Shown here one piece after another: positions 1,415 to 9,074 of a DNA stretch of 64,000 bases. The translations under genes and the position numbers were made by a program. The DNA is taken from assembly GCF_014467015.1 (NCBI RefSeq), contig NZ_CP058559.1:992001-1056000 (forward strand), in the 5' to 3' direction. The notes beneath the pieces are model-generated. The model was not told the DNA's origin, did no database searches, and was given only the letters and a program-made list of their open reading frames with translations. Source of the stretch: Alkalicella caledoniensis. GTDB taxonomy: Bacteria; Bacillota; Proteinivoracia; Proteinivoracales; Proteinivoracaceae. Each line of letters begins with the position of its first letter. Within the stretch, counting starts at the first letter, position 1.

Positions 1415-2008
1415 TTAAAAGTTGTTATCATCAAAAACCTCAAAGATTTCTCCTTCAAATTCCTCTTGCTCTGGTTCACTAACCACCCAAGGGGGTAGTA
1501 CCTCATAATAGTGTGCCAAAGCCTCTATGGTTTTGTGGAGCAGCACCTTATCAGGCACCTTTTCAACGAGCTCTACAATCAACTTATATGTATCCATATA
1601 TGGATTGTTATCAATTATATCTAAGGCTTGTTTGAATCGGGAAGCAAGCTTCGCTTTTTCAATGGTTCGCTCCATTGAATTTATTTCTTCTTTGTCATAT
1701 ATAGGTACTTCGACAAGATCATTAACTTCTCCTGTCATATACTGTAAATCATGTTTTCTAATTACTGGATTGAGATCCCGCTTCAACTTCTCCTTCTGAA
1801 TCTCAAGCTTCTCAATCTCATTAAGCTCCTTAGTGAAATACTCACTATCCAAACCAAAAAGCTCCTCAAGAACAGGGAGATATTTTTTAGGAATGTTCTG
1901 CTTCCCCTTAATCCACATGTTAATATTCTGCTTCCTAATTCCCAACTTCTCCGCCAACTCAATATGCTGCATATTATATATCCCTAAAACATACTCCAAC
2001 CCTAACAA
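1415..2008 (-). CDS. XRE-family helix-turn-helix regulator
   Basis: An HTH spans roughly residues 10-45 (MQHIELAEKLGIRKQNINMWIKGKQNIPKKYL), typical of Cro/C1-type repressors. It is followed by a charged linker and an acidic C-terminal region of unknown role. I place the start at TTG 2008, because GGAGGTGAG sits 6 nt ahead of it; the ATG at 2035 lies upstream of that site and inside the operator palindrome. Two copies of an operator-like palindrome overlap its promoter, so autorepression is likely. The gene directly precedes truncated hsdM, and may once have controlled that restriction system. Confidence 0.8.
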   Translation of the reverse strand: MLGLEYVLGIYNMQHIELAEKLGIRKQNINMWIKGKQNIPKKYLPVLEELFGLDSEYFTKELNEIEKLEIQKEKLKRDLNPVIRKHDLQYMTGEVNDLVEVPIYDKEEINSMERTIEKAKLASRFKQALDIIDNNPYMDTYKLIVELVEKVPDKVLLHKTIEALAHYYEVLPPWVVSEPEQEEFEGEIFEVFDDNNF

Positions 2009-2036
2009 AAACTCACCTCCAATACATAAAACCATA

Positions 2037-2087
2037 TTGACTGAGTCAATATGGTTTTATTATACAGGATAAAATTGTCTGGGTCAA
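2037..2087 (-). promoter_or_regulatory. Promoter with two operator palindromes for the XRE gene
   Basis: On the minus strand, TTGACC (2087-2082) and TATAAT (2064-2059) are separated by 17 bp, close to sigma-A consensus. TTGTC-TGG-GTCAA (2075-2087) covers the -35 box. TTGAC-TGA-GTCAA (2037-2049) lies just past the -10 box and is the core of a perfect 16-bp inverted repeat with a 3-nt spacer (2026-2060). The centres are 38 bp apart. This is the layout of an autorepressed promoter bound by the XRE protein encoded just downstream. Confidence 0.85.
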
Positions 2088-2117
2088 TAATTGTTGAGTA
2101 CGTTTTCCCAAAAACTA

Positions 2118-2525
2118 TTACATAAACAGTTCCAATACTTTTTTACTCATTATTTCGTTAAATGGTTCTCTTTCGCTTGGCTTATAAAAAAACTCTATTT
2201 TTTCATTATCAACTGCTCCTAAACCGATATTAAATTTTTTAAATATATCTATATTCTTCTTGGCAGATTTTACATGATCCATATCTAGTACTACGTATGT
2301 TTCGCAAGAAAAACTCTGGTACCTATAAGCCTGCTTTATTGCTTGTTTCCAGTTTTTTAATTTATACTCAATAGAAACAACTTTCCCATTGTAAATCACT
2401 ATATCAGGTATACCAAATAATCCCTTAGGTTCCATTATATAGTTTACATTTGCATTACCATTCTCGAATTCTTCAATAAGAAGTGGCAGGGAAAAATTCA
2501 CAAGTGCGGCTTCAGAAAGAAACAT
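2118..2525 (-). CDS. Small PD-(D/E)XK nuclease-like protein
   Basis: A 135-residue protein with the arrangement GIPDIVIYNGKVVSIEYKLKNWKQAIKQA at about residues 36-64. An Asp after a hydrophobic strand, then ExK about 13 residues later and a following helix, is the pattern of the PD-(D/E)XK nuclease fold used by many restriction and repair enzymes. It starts 3 nt after the stop of the 395-residue gene, so it is the last gene of an operon led by a protein kinase. No DNA-recognition domain is visible. The nuclease call rests on motif spacing only; a binding-only relative is possible. Confidence 0.6.
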   Translation of the reverse strand: MFLSEAALVNFSLPLLIEEFENGNANVNYIMEPKGLFGIPDIVIYNGKVVSIEYKLKNWKQAIKQAYRYQSFSCETYVVLDMDHVKSAKKNIDIFKKFNIGLGAVDNEKIEFFYKPSEREPFNEIMSKKVLELFM

Positions 2526-2528
2526 TAG

Positions 2529-3716
2529 TTATTCACCCTTTACATATTTACTAAACTTTGTAATAGCCGTATACCATTTATATAAATGGTCACCATTACT
2601 ATCATTATTGAACAAAACACCTTCATTTTCAATTTTATTATATAGCTCGATACCCTCTTTTATTACTTTTCTTAATTCGTTACATCTTTCATTAAAATCA
2701 TCTGGCAAAAGCTTATACTGACTATAAATAGATGTCATGTAGTGTTTATAAAGTTCCGGAAACTTCAAGTGCCAGTTATATTGGTCGGGTGTGCTAAAAT
2801 TTACATACTTGTTGTTGTCAAAAAGCTCTGGAAAGAAGTCAATATCTTTCATTGCACCTAAATAATCAAAGTCAATCCATTGTAGCAGTTTTGAGCTATA
2901 AATTCTTCTTTTGGGTCCTTTTTGGTGACTATCGTTCTTCCTTTCTTTAAAGTTTTCTAAGTTAAATTTTCTCGTATTTTCAAAAACACCAATTGAGACA
3001 GAATCAATTCCGGTCACAGAATAAAGTAACCCTTCAATATCTACATAGGCAAGGTGTACATACAGTTCATTTTCTTTTAAAGCATTTATAAAATAAAGCA
3101 TATTTAAAATGTAATCAATATCTTTTACCCTTTTGCTTATACTTTTTTGAAAAGGTACTAAATATACACCATCTATTTCTGTATATCCAGTTATAAAGTT
3201 TAATAATTCATTAGTGAAATTCTCATCAGTTAACTGAGAGTCTTTAATAACGATTGATAACAAAACTTTCTTATTTGAACTTCCTGCAGAGCCACATGCC
3301 TGCAAGTATGGATCAATGTATAGGTTCTTTAAGATTTCAAGGTAATTCTGTGGAGTCTCATCATAAACAACTGTAGGTATAATTATAAATTTATAATCTT
3401 GGGAAAGCTGGAAATCTACACATTTAACAGCTGACTCAAAACATGATTCTTCAAAATTTATCGTACTGTATCCATCAGATATAACATCTGGGAAAAAGTC
3501 AAACATCGCAAATTTTTGCAATTTACTCCTTGGGTAGTAGAATTGAGGATCAAATAAGGACCTTTGCTTTAACTTATCATCCCTTTGTGTAATTTTATTA
3601 GACGATGCCATTTTAGGACCGAATATTAATCCATCCCCAATCTTATCTTGGGTAAAAATATCAAAATTCCAAACATCATTATGACCACATTGATGAAAAA
3701 CATCAATTTTACTCAT
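2529..3716 (-). CDS. Unrecognised 395-residue protein in a kinase/nuclease-like operon
   Basis: I do not recognise this family. The first 230 residues alternate hydrophobic strands and amphipathic helices (GLIFGPKM, SLFDPQFYYP, YKFIIIPTVVYD, KKVLLSIVIKD, IDGVYLVPF, LYVHLAYVDIEG), which would suit a TIM-barrel-like fold. SLFDPQFYYP recalls tRNA-guanine transglycosylase-related proteins, but this is only a resemblance. The C-terminal 150 residues are charged and helical (ELRKVIKEGIELYNKIENEG). There is no signal peptide or membrane segment. It lies 7 nt after the kinase gene and 3 nt before the PD-(D/E)XK gene, so the three are very likely co-transcribed and act together. Confidence 0.7.
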   Translation of the reverse strand: MSKIDVFHQCGHNDVWNFDIFTQDKIGDGLIFGPKMASSNKITQRDDKLKQRSLFDPQFYYPRSKLQKFAMFDFFPDVISDGYSTINFEESCFESAVKCVDFQLSQDYKFIIIPTVVYDETPQNYLEILKNLYIDPYLQACGSAGSSNKKVLLSIVIKDSQLTDENFTNELLNFITGYTEIDGVYLVPFQKSISKRVKDIDYILNMLYFINALKENELYVHLAYVDIEGLLYSVTGIDSVSIGVFENTRKFNLENFKERKNDSHQKGPKRRIYSSKLLQWIDFDYLGAMKDIDFFPELFDNNKYVNFSTPDQYNWHLKFPELYKHYMTSIYSQYKLLPDDFNERCNELRKVIKEGIELYNKIENEGVLFNNDSNGDHLYKWYTAITKFSKYVKGE

Positions 3717-3723
3717 TCTTTCC

Positions 3724-4533
3724 TCACCTTTCTAAACATTTATTCAAATATTCTTTTAGGAGTCCCACCGTTCTTAATCTTTGAAACGGCTCTCGATTAA
3801 GTAATTTGTTAACTAGGTTTCCTGTAACCTCAGAAAGTCCAATATTCTCGTATTCAAGTCTATATTTATTGTGTAGCATATTTTCAAAAGTGCTCATTCC
3901 TTGCCCGACTACAGCAGGAGAAAAAGGATGTTCCCCAAGAATCAGCTCTGCCATTATAATAGCTAGTGAATAGAAATCACTTCTTATATCTATACTGTTT
4001 TTCTTGTTATCTATTTGCTCTGGAGAAGCGTATATGGGAGTACAAGGACCGTTCATATGCGCTGTTAAAGTTAGAGATTTGTCTTCAAGGACTCTGGCTA
4101 TTCCCAGATCAATTATTACCGGTTTTTCGTTAGCTTTTATTAGAATATTGTCGGGTTTTAAGTCCCTATGAACTATCTTCTTCTTCCATATCAGCTCTAG
4201 ACCATCAATAATTTCAATCATTAGAGAGACAACTCTTTTTTCATCGCCTTTAAAATCCGCCTTACATTCTGTAAGCGTTTTTGAGGAGATGTACTCTTCG
4301 AACATAATAAATTCACCCGTAGGCCATAGTTGGAATTCATAATTTTTCGGGAAATATTTAGAATCAAGTTCGCTTAATATGTTTACCTCTCTTTTTATCC
4401 GTTCTAAAGATGTCTTCGATAGGCATTTACCTTTTTTAAAAATGCACTCACCAAATAACTGATGGTTTATCCGATAAACCTCTTTTTGACCACTTTGCTT
4501 ATACTTTTCTATAACCTCAAAATCAATACTCAT
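3724..4533 (-). CDS. Soluble Hanks-type serine/threonine protein kinase
   Basis: Kinase motifs are intact: a Lys-bearing strand GECIFKKGK (about residue 30), the alpha-C Glu in IKREVNIL, the catalytic loop VHRDLKPDNILI (about 120), the metal-binding IIDLGIA (DLG in place of DFG), the activation segment end YASPEQ, and DIRSDFYSLAIIMAELILGEHPF. The glycine-rich loop is weak. At 269 residues it is a bare kinase domain with no membrane segment or PASTA repeats, so unlike PrkC it acts in the cytoplasm. It is the first gene of a three-gene operon, behind a promoter that overlaps a palindrome. Placement between hsdM and mcrC remnants suggests a defence role. Confidence 0.9.
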   Translation of the reverse strand: MSIDFEVIEKYKQSGQKEVYRINHQLFGECIFKKGKCLSKTSLERIKREVNILSELDSKYFPKNYEFQLWPTGEFIMFEEYISSKTLTECKADFKGDEKRVVSLMIEIIDGLELIWKKKIVHRDLKPDNILIKANEKPVIIDLGIARVLEDKSLTLTAHMNGPCTPIYASPEQIDNKKNSIDIRSDFYSLAIIMAELILGEHPFSPAVVGQGMSTFENMLHNKYRLEYENIGLSEVTGNLVNKLLNREPFQRLRTVGLLKEYLNKCLER

Positions 4534-4569
4534 AATTGCCCCCCTAACTACTTAAACTATATGCCACAA

Positions 4570-4606
4570 ATTATATGTCACTTATCCTATTCTCCAAATA
4601 TTTGGA
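4570..4606 (-). promoter_or_regulatory. Putative promoter and palindrome ahead of the kinase operon
   Basis: On the minus strand TTGGAG (4597-4592) and TATAAT (4575-4570) are 16 bp apart, about 40 bp upstream of the kinase ribosome site AGGGGGG. A perfect 14-bp palindrome TCCAAATATTTGGA (4593-4606) overlaps the -35 box and could be a repressor site. The short spacer and imperfect -35 make this moderate. Confidence 0.5.
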
Positions 4607-4659
4607 TAATCCTTTAAAGTTTAATCATTTAGTTAGGTTTACTTGTTAAACCATTGTTT

Positions 4660-5101
4660 CTAGCTATTTGTCTTAACACTGATCAGCCTCTCCCTAATTT
4701 CCTCGAACTCCCCACCCAAACTCACAGTATTAACTGATATATCATTACCACCCATTCTATAGTTCTGATCCAATCATAATCCAGGTGGGATGTAAAAACA
4801 TCCTGCGTATTTTACCATCAAAACTATTATTTTTAATATAGGTAAAATCTGTTATAGGTTTCCTGATATTTGTGTTTTTCCCCCTAGGTTGCTTTTATTT
4901 AGGGCGTTAGGGTAGTATTTTGTGTCTATTATCATTCTGTGGGTTTGGTTTTCTATTACTTTGTCTGTTCTCATTTGTGGTAGTAGATAGCCATCATTTT
5001 TTTCTTTTCTATTCTCTCGATGTTATCAGTTCTAGCTTTGCATGCCCAGAGTTGTATTTCTTAATTACCTTTAGCCACTTTTCAAATGCTACTCTATCCA
5101 C
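4660..5101 (-). pseudogene. mcrC: mcrC restriction gene remnant in pieces
   Basis: Translating the minus strand by eye gives separate McrC-like pieces. At 5016-4852 the frame reads DGYLLPQMRTDKVIENQ, then HRMIIDTKYYPNALN, and ends near ISGNL: the PD-(D/E)XK core of McrC (MxTDxxLE...IIIDTKYY...SGNLYQ) cut off just before its usual continuation. At 4768-4660 a second piece reads MGGNDISVNTVSLGG then FEEIRERL, like the McrC C-terminus. A third short frame, 5101-5009 (VDRVAFEKWLKVIKKY...), overlaps the first out of frame; its origin is unclear. Stops, frameshifts and an internal deletion exclude function. No mcrB is seen. Confidence 0.65.
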
Positions 5102-5400: not shown

Positions 5401-5531
5401 CATCAAATCTATACAAAAATAACCGGGCAATACCGGTTTCTTCATTTTGTACATCCCTTCATAGTACCTTTGGGGATTGTTAATTTCTATAAATCGTAGA
5501 TTCTATCGTAGGATTTTTTGATTAGTCTGAG

Positions 5532-5694
5532 CGCGCTTTGTGGGTCCGGGCGGGTTCGGAGCCCCGCTCCCTACAGTATGTGGTGCTTTTTGGGGGATAC
5601 CAAAGCTGAAGCATTGGCTACAACAAAAGATGTGGGAGGCGTTTTGTGGGTCAGGGCAGTACGAGCTGCCCCCTACTAGCCTTCGGCTACTACA
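5532..5694 (+). repeat. Modular hairpin repeat, copy A (three modules)
   Basis: Module 1 runs TTGTGGGTC - CGGGCGGGTTCGGAGCCCCGCTCC split core - CTACA (5538-5575). Module 2 has core CCAAAGCTGAAGCATTGG and CTACAACA (5600-5624). Module 3 has TTGTGGGTC, core GGGCAG-TACGAG-CTGCCC and a second hairpin TAGCC-TTC-GGCTA (5644-5694). The repeat is GC-rich against an AT-rich background and ends 21 bp from the stop of the minus-strand GNAT gene at 5716. ORFs crossing it are not coding. Confidence 0.85.
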
Positions 5695-6371: not shown

Positions 6372-6503
6372 TCAATGTGTCCATTTTAGCCATTGAATAC
6401 ATTCTGTTTCTGTTTCGAATTCTTCTGTCCAAGCATCGCCTGTTCTGTTGTCTACACCGATGAAGTATTTTCCCTCTTTCGTAAAAAACAGTCCCGCGGC
6501 TCT
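6372..6503 (-). pseudogene. Small coding remnant
   Basis: The minus strand reads RAAGLFFTKEGKYFIGVDNR followed by TGDAWTEEFETETECIQWLKWTH and a stop. The pattern (GxYxGVDNxTGDAWTEEF...WL) is recognisably protein-like and resembles small bacterial proteins of unknown function, but the frame begins right after a stop with no start codon, so the 5' end is lost or shifted. The stretches 6244-6371 and 6504-6640 show nothing else. Confidence 0.45.
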
Positions 6504-6654
6504 CTAGTTTCTATTATGTTTAGGGTTTCTTTATTTGATAGTATTTTGATTTACATCTTCCTGAACTCCTTATTGCATTATTTTAAATATAATTATATCC
6601 TACTATGTGACAAATGAGTATCACAAGTAGGATATTTTGATTAGATCTAAGCCC

Positions 6655-6840
6655 GTTTTGTGGGTCCGGGCGGGTTCGGAGCCCCGCTCCCTACAGTATG
6701 TGGGTGCTTTTTGTGGGAAACCAAAGCTAAAGCATTGACTACAACAGAAGATGTGGGGATCTTTTTGTTGGTCACGGCGGGTTCGGAGCTCTGCGACCTA
6801 CAGTTTGCGGGTACGCTTGGGAGGGGTCAAGGCTGAAGCT
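6655..6840 (+). repeat. Modular hairpin repeat, copy B
   Basis: TTTTGTGGGTCCGGGCGGG and GGAGCCCCGCTCCCTACA (6655-6694) match copy A module 1 exactly. This is followed by CCAAAGCTAAAGCATTGACTACAACA (split 6721-6746), a diverged GGTCACGGCGGGTTCGGAGC...CCTACA module, and a partial AAGGCTGAAGCT module ending 8 bp before the stop of the nuclease-like gene at 6848. Confidence 0.8.
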
Positions 6841-6847
6841 GTTATTT

Positions 6848-7631
6848 TTAGTCTTGGATTATCCGCTCATACGCTGCATTCCATAGTATTTTAGCATCGT
6901 CTAGTTTTGTCAAATTTAGGCCTTTGATGTTTGGGTTATTTAGTTCTAGCTCTATAAGGTCTTCAAATGTGACCCAATTGAGGGTAAGGTGGTTCAATCT
7001 TTCTTCTAATGATGTTGGATATTGCCAGTTATTATCTCTCGTTTTTTTGTCACTTTTCAGTTTTATCCTATTGGCTAAACAGCCATTCTGGGTGCCCAAT
7101 ATGCTTGAGTACTCTTTGAATTTGTAGGAGTATAATCTTGAGCCATATGTTTGTTTAAATATTCTTGGGGTTAGTAGGGTAAAGACTAGTTTAGATGGGA
7201 AAAAGCCATTACCCTGAAAGCACAATAGATTTTCTAGCACCCTGTCCATTTGATCAATGTTCTGTTCTTACACTTAGATCTGGTAGGTATTTAGCTTCTA
7301 CGAAGCATACTTCATCGCCAGTACTATTATCGAACTGTATACCTGAAGTGGTTTTATCTCGTATGGATATAGCTCCTAAAGCCATATCTAAGTGTGTATT
7401 ACCTTCATCACCGATGTAAGGGACAAGTGGCTGGCTTTCTAGGAAGATACTATGGTTTTTTTGGCAGTTGAATCCTGTTAGTTCTCTGTAAACATCTTTA
7501 TTCTTTTCTGCTATTTTTCCTATTAGGTATGTCCAAACAATTTCGTTATTGAATATATTCTTTTTGAAGTACTCATCAGTTAGGTTGGCACCTAACTGGG
7601 GTGGGTTGCTGAAGTTTTTAAAGTCTACCAT
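6848..7631 (-). pseudogene. PD-(D/E)XK nuclease-like gene split by a frameshift
   Basis: Two frames, 7631-7254 (125 residues) and 7249-6848 (133 residues), read as one protein of about 258 residues. The first ends PDLSVRTEH-stop, while the next frame already reads NIDQMDRVLENLLCFQGN across the junction. The joined product has THLDMALGAI (about residue 80) and EVCFVEAKYLPD (about 107): an Asp followed by ExK on the next strand, as in the PD-(D/E)XK fold. The first frame starts at ATG 7631 with a GGAAGGTG site. One indel near 7255 explains the break, so the gene is probably inactive unless the shift is a sequencing error. Confidence 0.65.
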
Positions 7632-7799
7632 ATTTATTCACCTTCCTATCTCAAAATCGTATTTTTTATTTAACTATTACTTTTTTAATTCTGGCCCATG
7701 ATTCTATATGTTTTAAATCTAGTTTAAAAAGTTTATATTACATTTATCTAGTCCTGAGCTTGATTGATTCATTTATCCATACAGGTTATTAAAAGACAG

Positions 7800-8085
7800 T
7801 AATATATATGCCTTCACTCTTAACAGTTTCTCTAAGACAAGGTCATCTTACATAGGCATATAACTTAAGCAGTTATGTTAATTCGAGGAGTTAGATTTAA
7901 GAGCTGACTAGATGAGCGGAAGAAGGGGCGAGAAACAGGACGTTTCGAGAGGTCCTCTTGTCATGGACGACAAATTGGACCTGTACCCTTCTGGAGCTTA
8001 GATAGAAGCCTTAAATCTCAACGTAGAATTATTTAACTGTGTAGTTGTATGCCGACAATGGCTGTGACTTTGTCGACCGCAATAG
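7800..8085 (+). ncRNA. Structured non-coding RNA candidate (possibly raiA-like)
   Basis: A non-coding stretch with dense nested pairing. TATATGCC (7805-7812) pairs with GGCATATA (7855-7862). AGATTTAAG (7893-7901) pairs with CTTAAATCT (8010-8018). Inside that, AGAAGGG (7921-7927) pairs with CCCTTCT (7986-7992) and encloses GAAAC/GTTTC (7932-7946) and AGGTCC/GGACCT (7950-7982), itself enclosing TTGTC/GACAA (7958-7973). A weaker hairpin (8051-8080) may be the 3' end. Purine-rich loops (GGCGAGAAACAGGACG) favour the plus strand. The shape and GGCGAGAAACAGGACGUUUCG-type core remind me of the Clostridial raiA motif, from memory only. That it is a structured RNA is much surer than the name. Confidence 0.7.
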
Positions 8086-8094
8086 TGGGGTTGT

Positions 8095-8298
8095 TTTGTG
8101 GGTCCCCAAGGCTGAAGCCTTGGCTACAACAGTTTGGAGTGTGGGTTTTGGTTTTGATTAGTGTTAATCTGTGTTATCTGTGGCTAGGTGAAATGTCAAT
8201 AGTAAATTGTACATTTATGGCATTTTGATGTTTCCGCAGGTCAGGGTGGCACAAGACCACCCCCTACTAGCCTTGGCTAAAACAGTTTGGTGTGTGGG
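8095..8298 (+). repeat. Modular hairpin repeat, copy D (two modules)
   Basis: Module 1 (8095-8131) is TTGTGGGTC, perfect palindromic core CCAAGGCT-GA-AGCCTTGG, then CTACAACAGTTTGG. Module 2 (8237-8291) is CAGGTC with core GGGTGG-CACAAGA-CCACCC, then CCTACTAGCCTTGGCTAAAACAGTTTGG. The same 3' tail (ACAGTTTGGxGTGTGGG) follows both modules and also copy F, so repeats share flanks as well as cores. Confidence 0.8.
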
Positions 8299-8407: not shown

Positions 8408-9074
8408 TTACCTTTGCTTCGCCTGCTTCCATGTAGCTGAAAGTACTTCTAGCGACTGATACCTTTGATTCCTATCTTTACTAGCTGCTTTTTTTGCCAC
8501 ATCATATAGTGCCTTATGTGCAAGCCATCCTTCTATGCTTTTTTCCACTGCATTCCCTAACAGGACAAAGGCTGTTGCACCCATTAGGTAGACGTTTGTA
8601 ATTTCATCGATTACGGAACCCTTTTCATATTCTTCTGGAGACATGAACCTTCCTGATCCCCACATTCTTCCCACTGTGTTTACGTAAGGTTTTTTGGCGT
8701 AATACTCTATGTCACAAATTATTGTTCTTTTGTTTTGAAAGTCATACATTATACTCCCATCATAGAAATCGATTGCTACGTATCCTTGTTTATTTACAAA
8801 CCTGTGGAACTCTAAAATATCTTCAAACATGTTGATTCTCTCTTTAATGGGTAGTTCGAAAAACTTATGTCTGGACTCATACTGTTTACCCATGCATTCA
8901 GCATCGGTCCATTCAAAAATAGCTGCGTAGCCATCATTTATTTCAATTCCATCTATGAATTTAACTAAATTATTATGTTTTAAGTTTTTGTAGACTTTGC
9001 ATGCATATTTTAAATCCCTAATAGCGTCTTGAGGCTGCCCTGTGTATCTTACTGTTTTTGCACCTGCAACCTTA
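8408..9074 (-). pseudogene. Divergent protein-kinase-like gene, 5' end removed by an IS element
   Basis: The frame is open from 9074 to 8408 (about 222 codons). It begins AGAKTVRYTGQPQDAIRDLK in an N-lobe, continues LKHNNLVKFIDGIEINDGYA, and holds a C-lobe with YVAIDFYDGSIMYDF, TIICDIEYY (DIE in place of DFG), GRMWGSGRFMSPEEYEKG and EITNVYLMGATAF. This matches a Bacillus/Clostridia kinase-like family of about 270 residues, as I remember it, that naturally carries these unusual loops. The first 60 or so residues, with the ATP loop, are missing, and the frame meets the end of an IS200/IS605-type element at about 9074. ATG 8893 is internal. The missing 5' part was not recognised beyond the element. 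Confidence 0.75.

Follow-up and report, generated by a model that had tools for sequence, protein, structure and literature searches.

A protein kinase, an orphan barrel protein and a putative PD-(D/E)XK nuclease form a conserved three-gene unit with a likely role in anti-phage defence

Do three closely packed genes beside a truncated restriction gene of Alkalicella caledoniensis form a system of their own, and if so, does that system act against phages? We addressed this question in a stretch of 64,000 nucleotides, hereafter the window, whose relevant features are collected in Table 1. The three genes encode a kinase (K), a protein of no known family (M) and a small putative nuclease (N). A first-pass annotation, made from the letters of the window, had described them as three genes, the kinase gene intact, separated by 7 and 3 nt and sharing a promoter. 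The open reading frames show the same arrangement: all three are intact minus-strand genes, arranged K-M-N, with 7 nt between K and M and 3 nt between M and N. The GC content of the trio is 31.8%, versus 35.6% for the whole window. We could not confirm the promoter, as a consensus scan of positions 1900-4800 gave no promoter-like site on the minus strand ahead of K, and promoter-like sites in this interval show no clear excess over shuffled sequence. The promoter-like site of Table 1 would serve the adjacent XRE gene rather than the trio. Taken by themselves, the short gaps suggest that K, M and N are read as a single transcript.

Table 1. Features of the trio and its immediate neighbours, in window coordinates.
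Feature	Coordinates	Strand	Remarks
Truncated hsdM, 218 aa	743..1399	minus	HsdM_N E 7.3e-28; PADLOC MTase_I E 2.7e-85
XRE/HTH_3 regulator	1415..2035	minus	HTH_3 E 8.3e-7
Promoter-like site TTGACC-17-TATAAT	2059..2087	minus	Consensus scan, 11/12 positions; just past the 3' end of N
N, putative PD-(D/E)XK nuclease, short form, 135 aa	2118..2525	minus	Intact ORF
M, orphan (beta/alpha) barrel protein, no known family, 395 aa	2529..3716	minus	Intact ORF
K, Hanks-type protein kinase, soluble, 269 aa	3724..4533	minus	Intact ORF

K matches the Pfam Pkinase profile with an E-value of 1.7e-32, and its residues K33, E49, H122, D124, K126, N129, D142 and G144 are invariant in all 14 of 14 homologues. D124 lies in an HRD motif and D142 in a DLG motif, and every catalytic residue checked is present, as expected of a Hanks-type Ser/Thr kinase; the first reading had likewise proposed an intact Hanks kinase. 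The best PADLOC models for K are mad6 (E 5.5e-41) and PD-T4-6 (E 2.9e-35), both through the kinase domain only, and we attribute these matches to a kinase domain that is common to many such proteins. We considered K as a single-gene PD-T4-6 and rejected this assignment: the kinase matches, but the gene is part of a three-gene unit at every testable locus. Elsewhere in the window, positions 8408-8893 hold a fragment that resembles a kinase, matches PD-T4-6 weakly (E 7e-5) and seems to lack its N-terminal part; it is apparently a second, decayed kinase of the same island.

In N, the residues E32, D41, E53, K55, Q65 and G101 are invariant in 18 of 18 homologues. They spell out the E...D...ExK...Q pattern of PD-(D/E)XK nucleases, bearing out the Asp...ExK spacing noted on first inspection, and the sequence suggests the helix-strand-strand-strand-helix-strand order of these enzymes. 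Family matches are weak: N matches NCBIfam sce7726 at E 1.2e-3 (18.8 bits versus a cut-off of 70), one member of the N family matches PDDEXK_9 at E 0.01, and a profile of the N core searched against solved structures returned no significant PD-(D/E)XK match and nothing relevant. On the motif and these weak family matches, we classify N as a putative PD-(D/E)XK nuclease. Most N homologues carry a winged helix inserted between D and ExK, which matches MarR/Lrp regulators in a search of solved structures (E 2.6e-4) and would fit a DNA substrate; the insert is missing from N in the window and in L004, L017 and L025.

Whether these genes make up a system depends on their occurring together in other genomes, which they do. 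Searching with M and with successively larger M alignments, we found M at 20 loci, of which L030 and L031 are nearly identical, and one decayed copy. The hosts include several bacterial lineages; prophages, a Tn7-like element and one plasmid each of Polaromonas and of a haloarchaeon also carry M. All 19 loci that can be tested have K beside M; L098 falls outside this count because its contig cuts M itself. Likewise, N adjoins the K-M pair at each of 19 testable loci, with L013 left out because its contig ends after M. Loss of co-occurrence, the most direct objection to the first-pass proposal, is therefore refuted. The same gene content appears in three gene orders: K-M-N in the window and L004; N-K-M in L014-L017, L020, L022, L024, L025, L030, L031 and L097; and K-M with a convergent N in L018, L019 (where the kinase frame is incomplete), L021, L026 and L027. 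At L098, N follows M. Where the genes are co-directional, they overlap or are closely spaced nearly everywhere. L097 and L098 were found last, with a wider profile built before either was known, and therefore serve as a check: L097 is a complete trio, and the N proteins of both carry all of the invariant residues.

Pairwise distances among K, M and N across 14 loci are strongly correlated (r 0.87 for K-M, 0.88 for K-N and 0.84 for M-N), with 0 of 10,000 Mantel permutations reaching the observed values, and the correlation persists among distant pairs alone (r 0.63-0.74). Such matching distance matrices are as expected for a jointly inherited unit. Overall, we consider it established, at the level of sequence comparison, that K-M-N is one conserved three-gene unit. 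M is truncated to 147 aa in L017 (7266-7709) and broken in L099 while the neighbouring genes are still there, indicating that the system decays or disappears in some lineages.

The first-pass annotation had placed a truncated hsdM on one side of the trio and mcrC pieces on the other. The hsdM remnant is real, consisting of an HsdM_N domain and the first 50 positions of N6_Mtase (just positions 2-52 of 311 are covered). The mcrC pieces remain unconfirmed: to the eye, stop-interrupted frames at ~4680-5100 resemble the C-terminal part of McrC, but no mcrC match came from Pfam, from PADLOC or from searching the complete genome with PF10117, which leaves hsdM as the only confirmed defence remnant in the window. 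The XRE gene is probably outside the system, because no such regulator is seen among the open reading frames at the trio of Clostridium thailandense (L004). Just left of the window (L087, 1-12778), we noted by eye phage tail, holin and lysin-like genes and a short amidase-like ORF soon followed by a reverse-transcriptase-like ORF (6440-8233). Next come two large serine-recombinase-like ORFs, also recognised by eye, which end ~1.2 kb before the window. From left to right there then follow an HKD-type protein (PADLOC DpdK/DrmC-like, E ~1e-7), a SEC-C gene, hsdM, the XRE gene and the trio. Given the phage-like and recombinase-like genes to its left, the trio adjoins the apparent end of an integrated prophage. 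Beyond the trio, adjacent minus-strand ORFs at 7254-7631 and 6848-7249 look like one frameshift-split gene with a VEAK motif near the break, and neither has a Pfam or PADLOC match. A GC-rich stretch, gggtccgggcgggttcggagccccgctccctacagtatgtgg, occurs twice in non-coding DNA (window ~5520-5680 and ~6640-6800) and by eye has the look of a dispersed repeat.

Mobile elements carry the trio at other loci as well. In L026 and L027 it has an integrase on one side and a repressor/ImmA-type peptidase pair on the other, where lysogeny regions usually keep accessory genes. A complete trio sits inside a phage tail gene cluster, apparent tape-measure genes included, in L030 and L031 (3325-6206), and in L004 the trio adjoins TnsA, a Mu-type transposase and a TniB-like ATPase, that is, a Tn7-like element. 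L024 is a plasmid from a haloarchaeon, and L025 one from the betaproteobacterium Polaromonas. The loci from viral contigs come from a collection of virus-like contigs only. With the window M as query, phages and plasmids gave no match; a diverged M homologue recovered these two plasmid loci.

As a raw count, known or candidate defence genes neighbour the trio in the window (the hsdM remnant) and at six other non-viral loci, of eleven non-viral loci with some flank. In L016 (192-9239), HmaB and HmaC immediately precede the trio in the same direction, with no HmaA seen in the stretch examined. Its neighbours are a DISARM DrmMI/type IIG-like enzyme in L024, a GajB-like helicase in L025, LmuB and PDC-M62 in L097, and AbiEi/AbiEii in L098; in L099, AbiEi stands beside the decayed M. 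For comparison, 36% of vapKSC loci are reported to have an immune gene no more than 10 kb away (PMC13373217).

Joint spread through distant lineages and mobile elements, often near defence genes, leads us to propose that the trio is probably an undescribed anti-virus system. Specifically, we assign a probability of about 0.62 to K-M-N being an undescribed anti-phage unit of the abortive-infection or toxin-antitoxin-like kind that works broadly as in the switch model given below; the positions that the trio takes up at several independent loci make a defence role likely. Its presence on prophages, plasmids and a Tn7-like element would also suit a module that stabilises such prophages, plasmids and transposons by addiction, with N as toxin, M as antitoxin and K as regulator, and with defence as a side effect at most. 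The compact operon agrees with such a role, and the architectural relative gop-beta has been described as toxin-antitoxin-like (PMC9122126). However, defence genes lie near the trio at chromosomal loci, and three parts with an active-looking kinase exceed what maintenance needs, so that we regard simple addiction as unlikely.

The barrel protein bears on a further alternative. M has no match at a meaningful E-value in Pfam, PADLOC, NCBIfam or PHROGs, and no useful match among solved structures. Its AlphaFold2 model predicts a beta/alpha barrel followed by a C-terminal helical part (pLDDT 84.5, pTM 0.89). The final alignment held 15 sequences, with two plasmid-derived sequences left out; an earlier model from four sequences was too poor (pLDDT 55). 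In the model, eight strands alternate with helices as in a TIM barrel, so that the protein first reported as unplaceable and possibly barrel-like is now confidently predicted to be a TIM barrel, with no family match. Foldseek returned a mixture of TIM barrels as best hits, with query-normalised TM-scores of just 0.3-0.4, and therefore no family can be named for M. Invariant in M are G11, the DPQxY motif at 56-60 (after strand 3 in the model), P114, Y185 and G243, and near-invariant are Q9, P34, V220, R249 and F251. S154 marks the one column of M with Ser or Thr throughout an alignment of 17 sequences. C-terminal strand ends are more conserved than N-terminal ones (0.59 versus 0.43; Mann-Whitney p 2.5e-4). 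TIM barrels bind substrates and ligands at the C-terminal ends of their strands, and the conserved residues of M are predicted to occupy this active- or ligand-site position. The position of Asp56 and several viral Foldseek matches prompted us to consider M as a tRNA-guanine transglycosylase (TGT) or DpdA-like enzyme, which a profile comparison with TGT does not support: hhalign gave 0.2% against 28 TGT sequences, about the same as against triosephosphate isomerase.

These features bear on a restriction-like scheme in which N would cut incoming DNA, M would be a nucleotide or base enzyme (for example, a distant base-exchange or phosphohydrolase barrel) and K a regulator. The clustering of conserved residues on the catalytic face of the predicted barrel speaks for it, as do four queuine tRNA-ribosyltransferase-like proteins among the best 50 viral structural matches of M and the winged-helix insert of long N proteins. 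Against it stand the near-absent profile similarity to TGT and an operon without a recognisable modification gene, and we give this scheme little weight.

How the trio is distributed bears on whether it serves the host. In a sample of the phylum, 10 of 398 genomes match M at E<=1e-3, a figure that includes at least one chance match and places the trio at ~2%; among these ten, G117 has no trio nearby and the copy in G088 is decayed. We discarded the weak M matches in G070, G234 and G117 as chance, as they were lost with the wider profile or had no trio nearby. The four other genomes of the same family all lack the trio. Such a sporadic distribution resembles that of defence systems and mobile genes. 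Although Hanks kinases and TIM barrels occur frequently in signalling and metabolism, an ordinary host signalling or metabolic operon kept by descent is very improbable for a trio so scattered, which travels on mobile elements of bacteria and of one archaeon. Nor did the trio match a known housekeeping operon, another of the objections to the first-pass proposal.

In the anti-phage reading that we prefer, M would be a switch that binds an infection-linked ligand or partner protein and keeps N inactive. Infection would activate K, K would phosphorylate M (or N), and the freed N would cut DNA, stopping the phage and probably also the cell. These individual steps, drawn by analogy, are less certain than the overall reading as a defence unit. 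If the defence role is true, the trio would be a three-gene anti-phage system absent from PADLOC (2023), Pfam, PHROGs and NCBIfam, M would represent a protein family without a known relative, and phosphorylation control over a DNA nuclease could be tested in bacterial and archaeal immunity. A bolder claim, which we put forward tentatively and consider doubtful, is that of a bacterial and archaeal immune system of a new type, with a TIM-barrel sensor or signal enzyme, a Hanks kinase phospho-relay and a PD-(D/E)XK effector, and with no known homologous precedent.

The trio is undescribed in the libraries searched: PADLOC (2023), Pfam and PHROGs hold no family covering M, and a literature search, with preprints and most subscription journals outside its scope, found no paper on the trio. 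Several known systems share parts of its design. Hanks-type kinases also act in PD-T4-6, Stk2, MADS6 and PglW, the last of which joins a NERD PD-(D/E)XK nuclease to kinase domains (PMC12839542); K, by contrast, consists of nothing more than a 269-aa kinase domain and is encoded next to M and N.

The nearest known systems are VapKSC by likely logic and gop-beta-cII/PD-Lambda-2 by architecture, and the trio belongs to neither. VapKSC, a functional analogue with a three-gene kinase-adaptor-nuclease logic, protects against a phage, and its authors' model has the kinase phosphorylate the antitoxin and thereby free the nuclease (PMC13373217). Its GHKL kinase VapK, STAS protein VapS and PIN nuclease VapC are, however, not homologous to K, M or N: Pfam finds no GHKL, STAS or PIN domain in the trio, and K is a Pkinase.

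Gop-beta-cII (from the P4 satellite; beta/cll in PADLOC) and PD-Lambda-2 likewise combine a barrel-like protein (by eye) with a small PD-(D/E)XK-type protein and a third gene, travel on prophages and satellites, and can have convergent nuclease and barrel genes, an arrangement that L018, L021, L026 and L027 share. Gop-beta-cII protects against lambda and P1 (PMC9122126), and PD-Lambda-2C is needed for defence, not for toxin neutralisation (PMC9519451). The third gene is gop or HigBA there, whereas it is a kinase in the trio. We rejected M as a Beta_protein (PF14350), with no Pfam or PADLOC match and 0.4% by hhalign. The N core aligned to a sce7726 plus Cll profile with a probability of 10.9% (P 0.0028), so that N resembles Cll/sce7726 remotely at best. 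In L084-L086, a Beta_protein gene adjoins a Cll/sce7726-like nuclease.

The sce7725/sce7726 pair (NCBIfam NF033831/NF033832) similarly joins a barrel-like protein (by eye) to a PD-(D/E)XK-type protein; the compact operon also holds a third gene, whose product is RES-like (by eye), in contrast to the kinase of the trio. Neither NCBIfam cut-off is reached, N falling short as given above and M having no match, and M as sce7725 was rejected with a profile comparison of 0.2%. In L078-L082, sce7725 and sce7726 form a conserved three-gene operon with a RES-domain-like (NAD-targeting) protein, again by eye, which is possibly a parallel defence module. If our reading is true, the trio may join gop-beta-cII, PD-Lambda-2 and sce7725/7726 as another instance of a recurrent design that pairs a barrel-like protein with a small PD-(D/E)XK nuclease.
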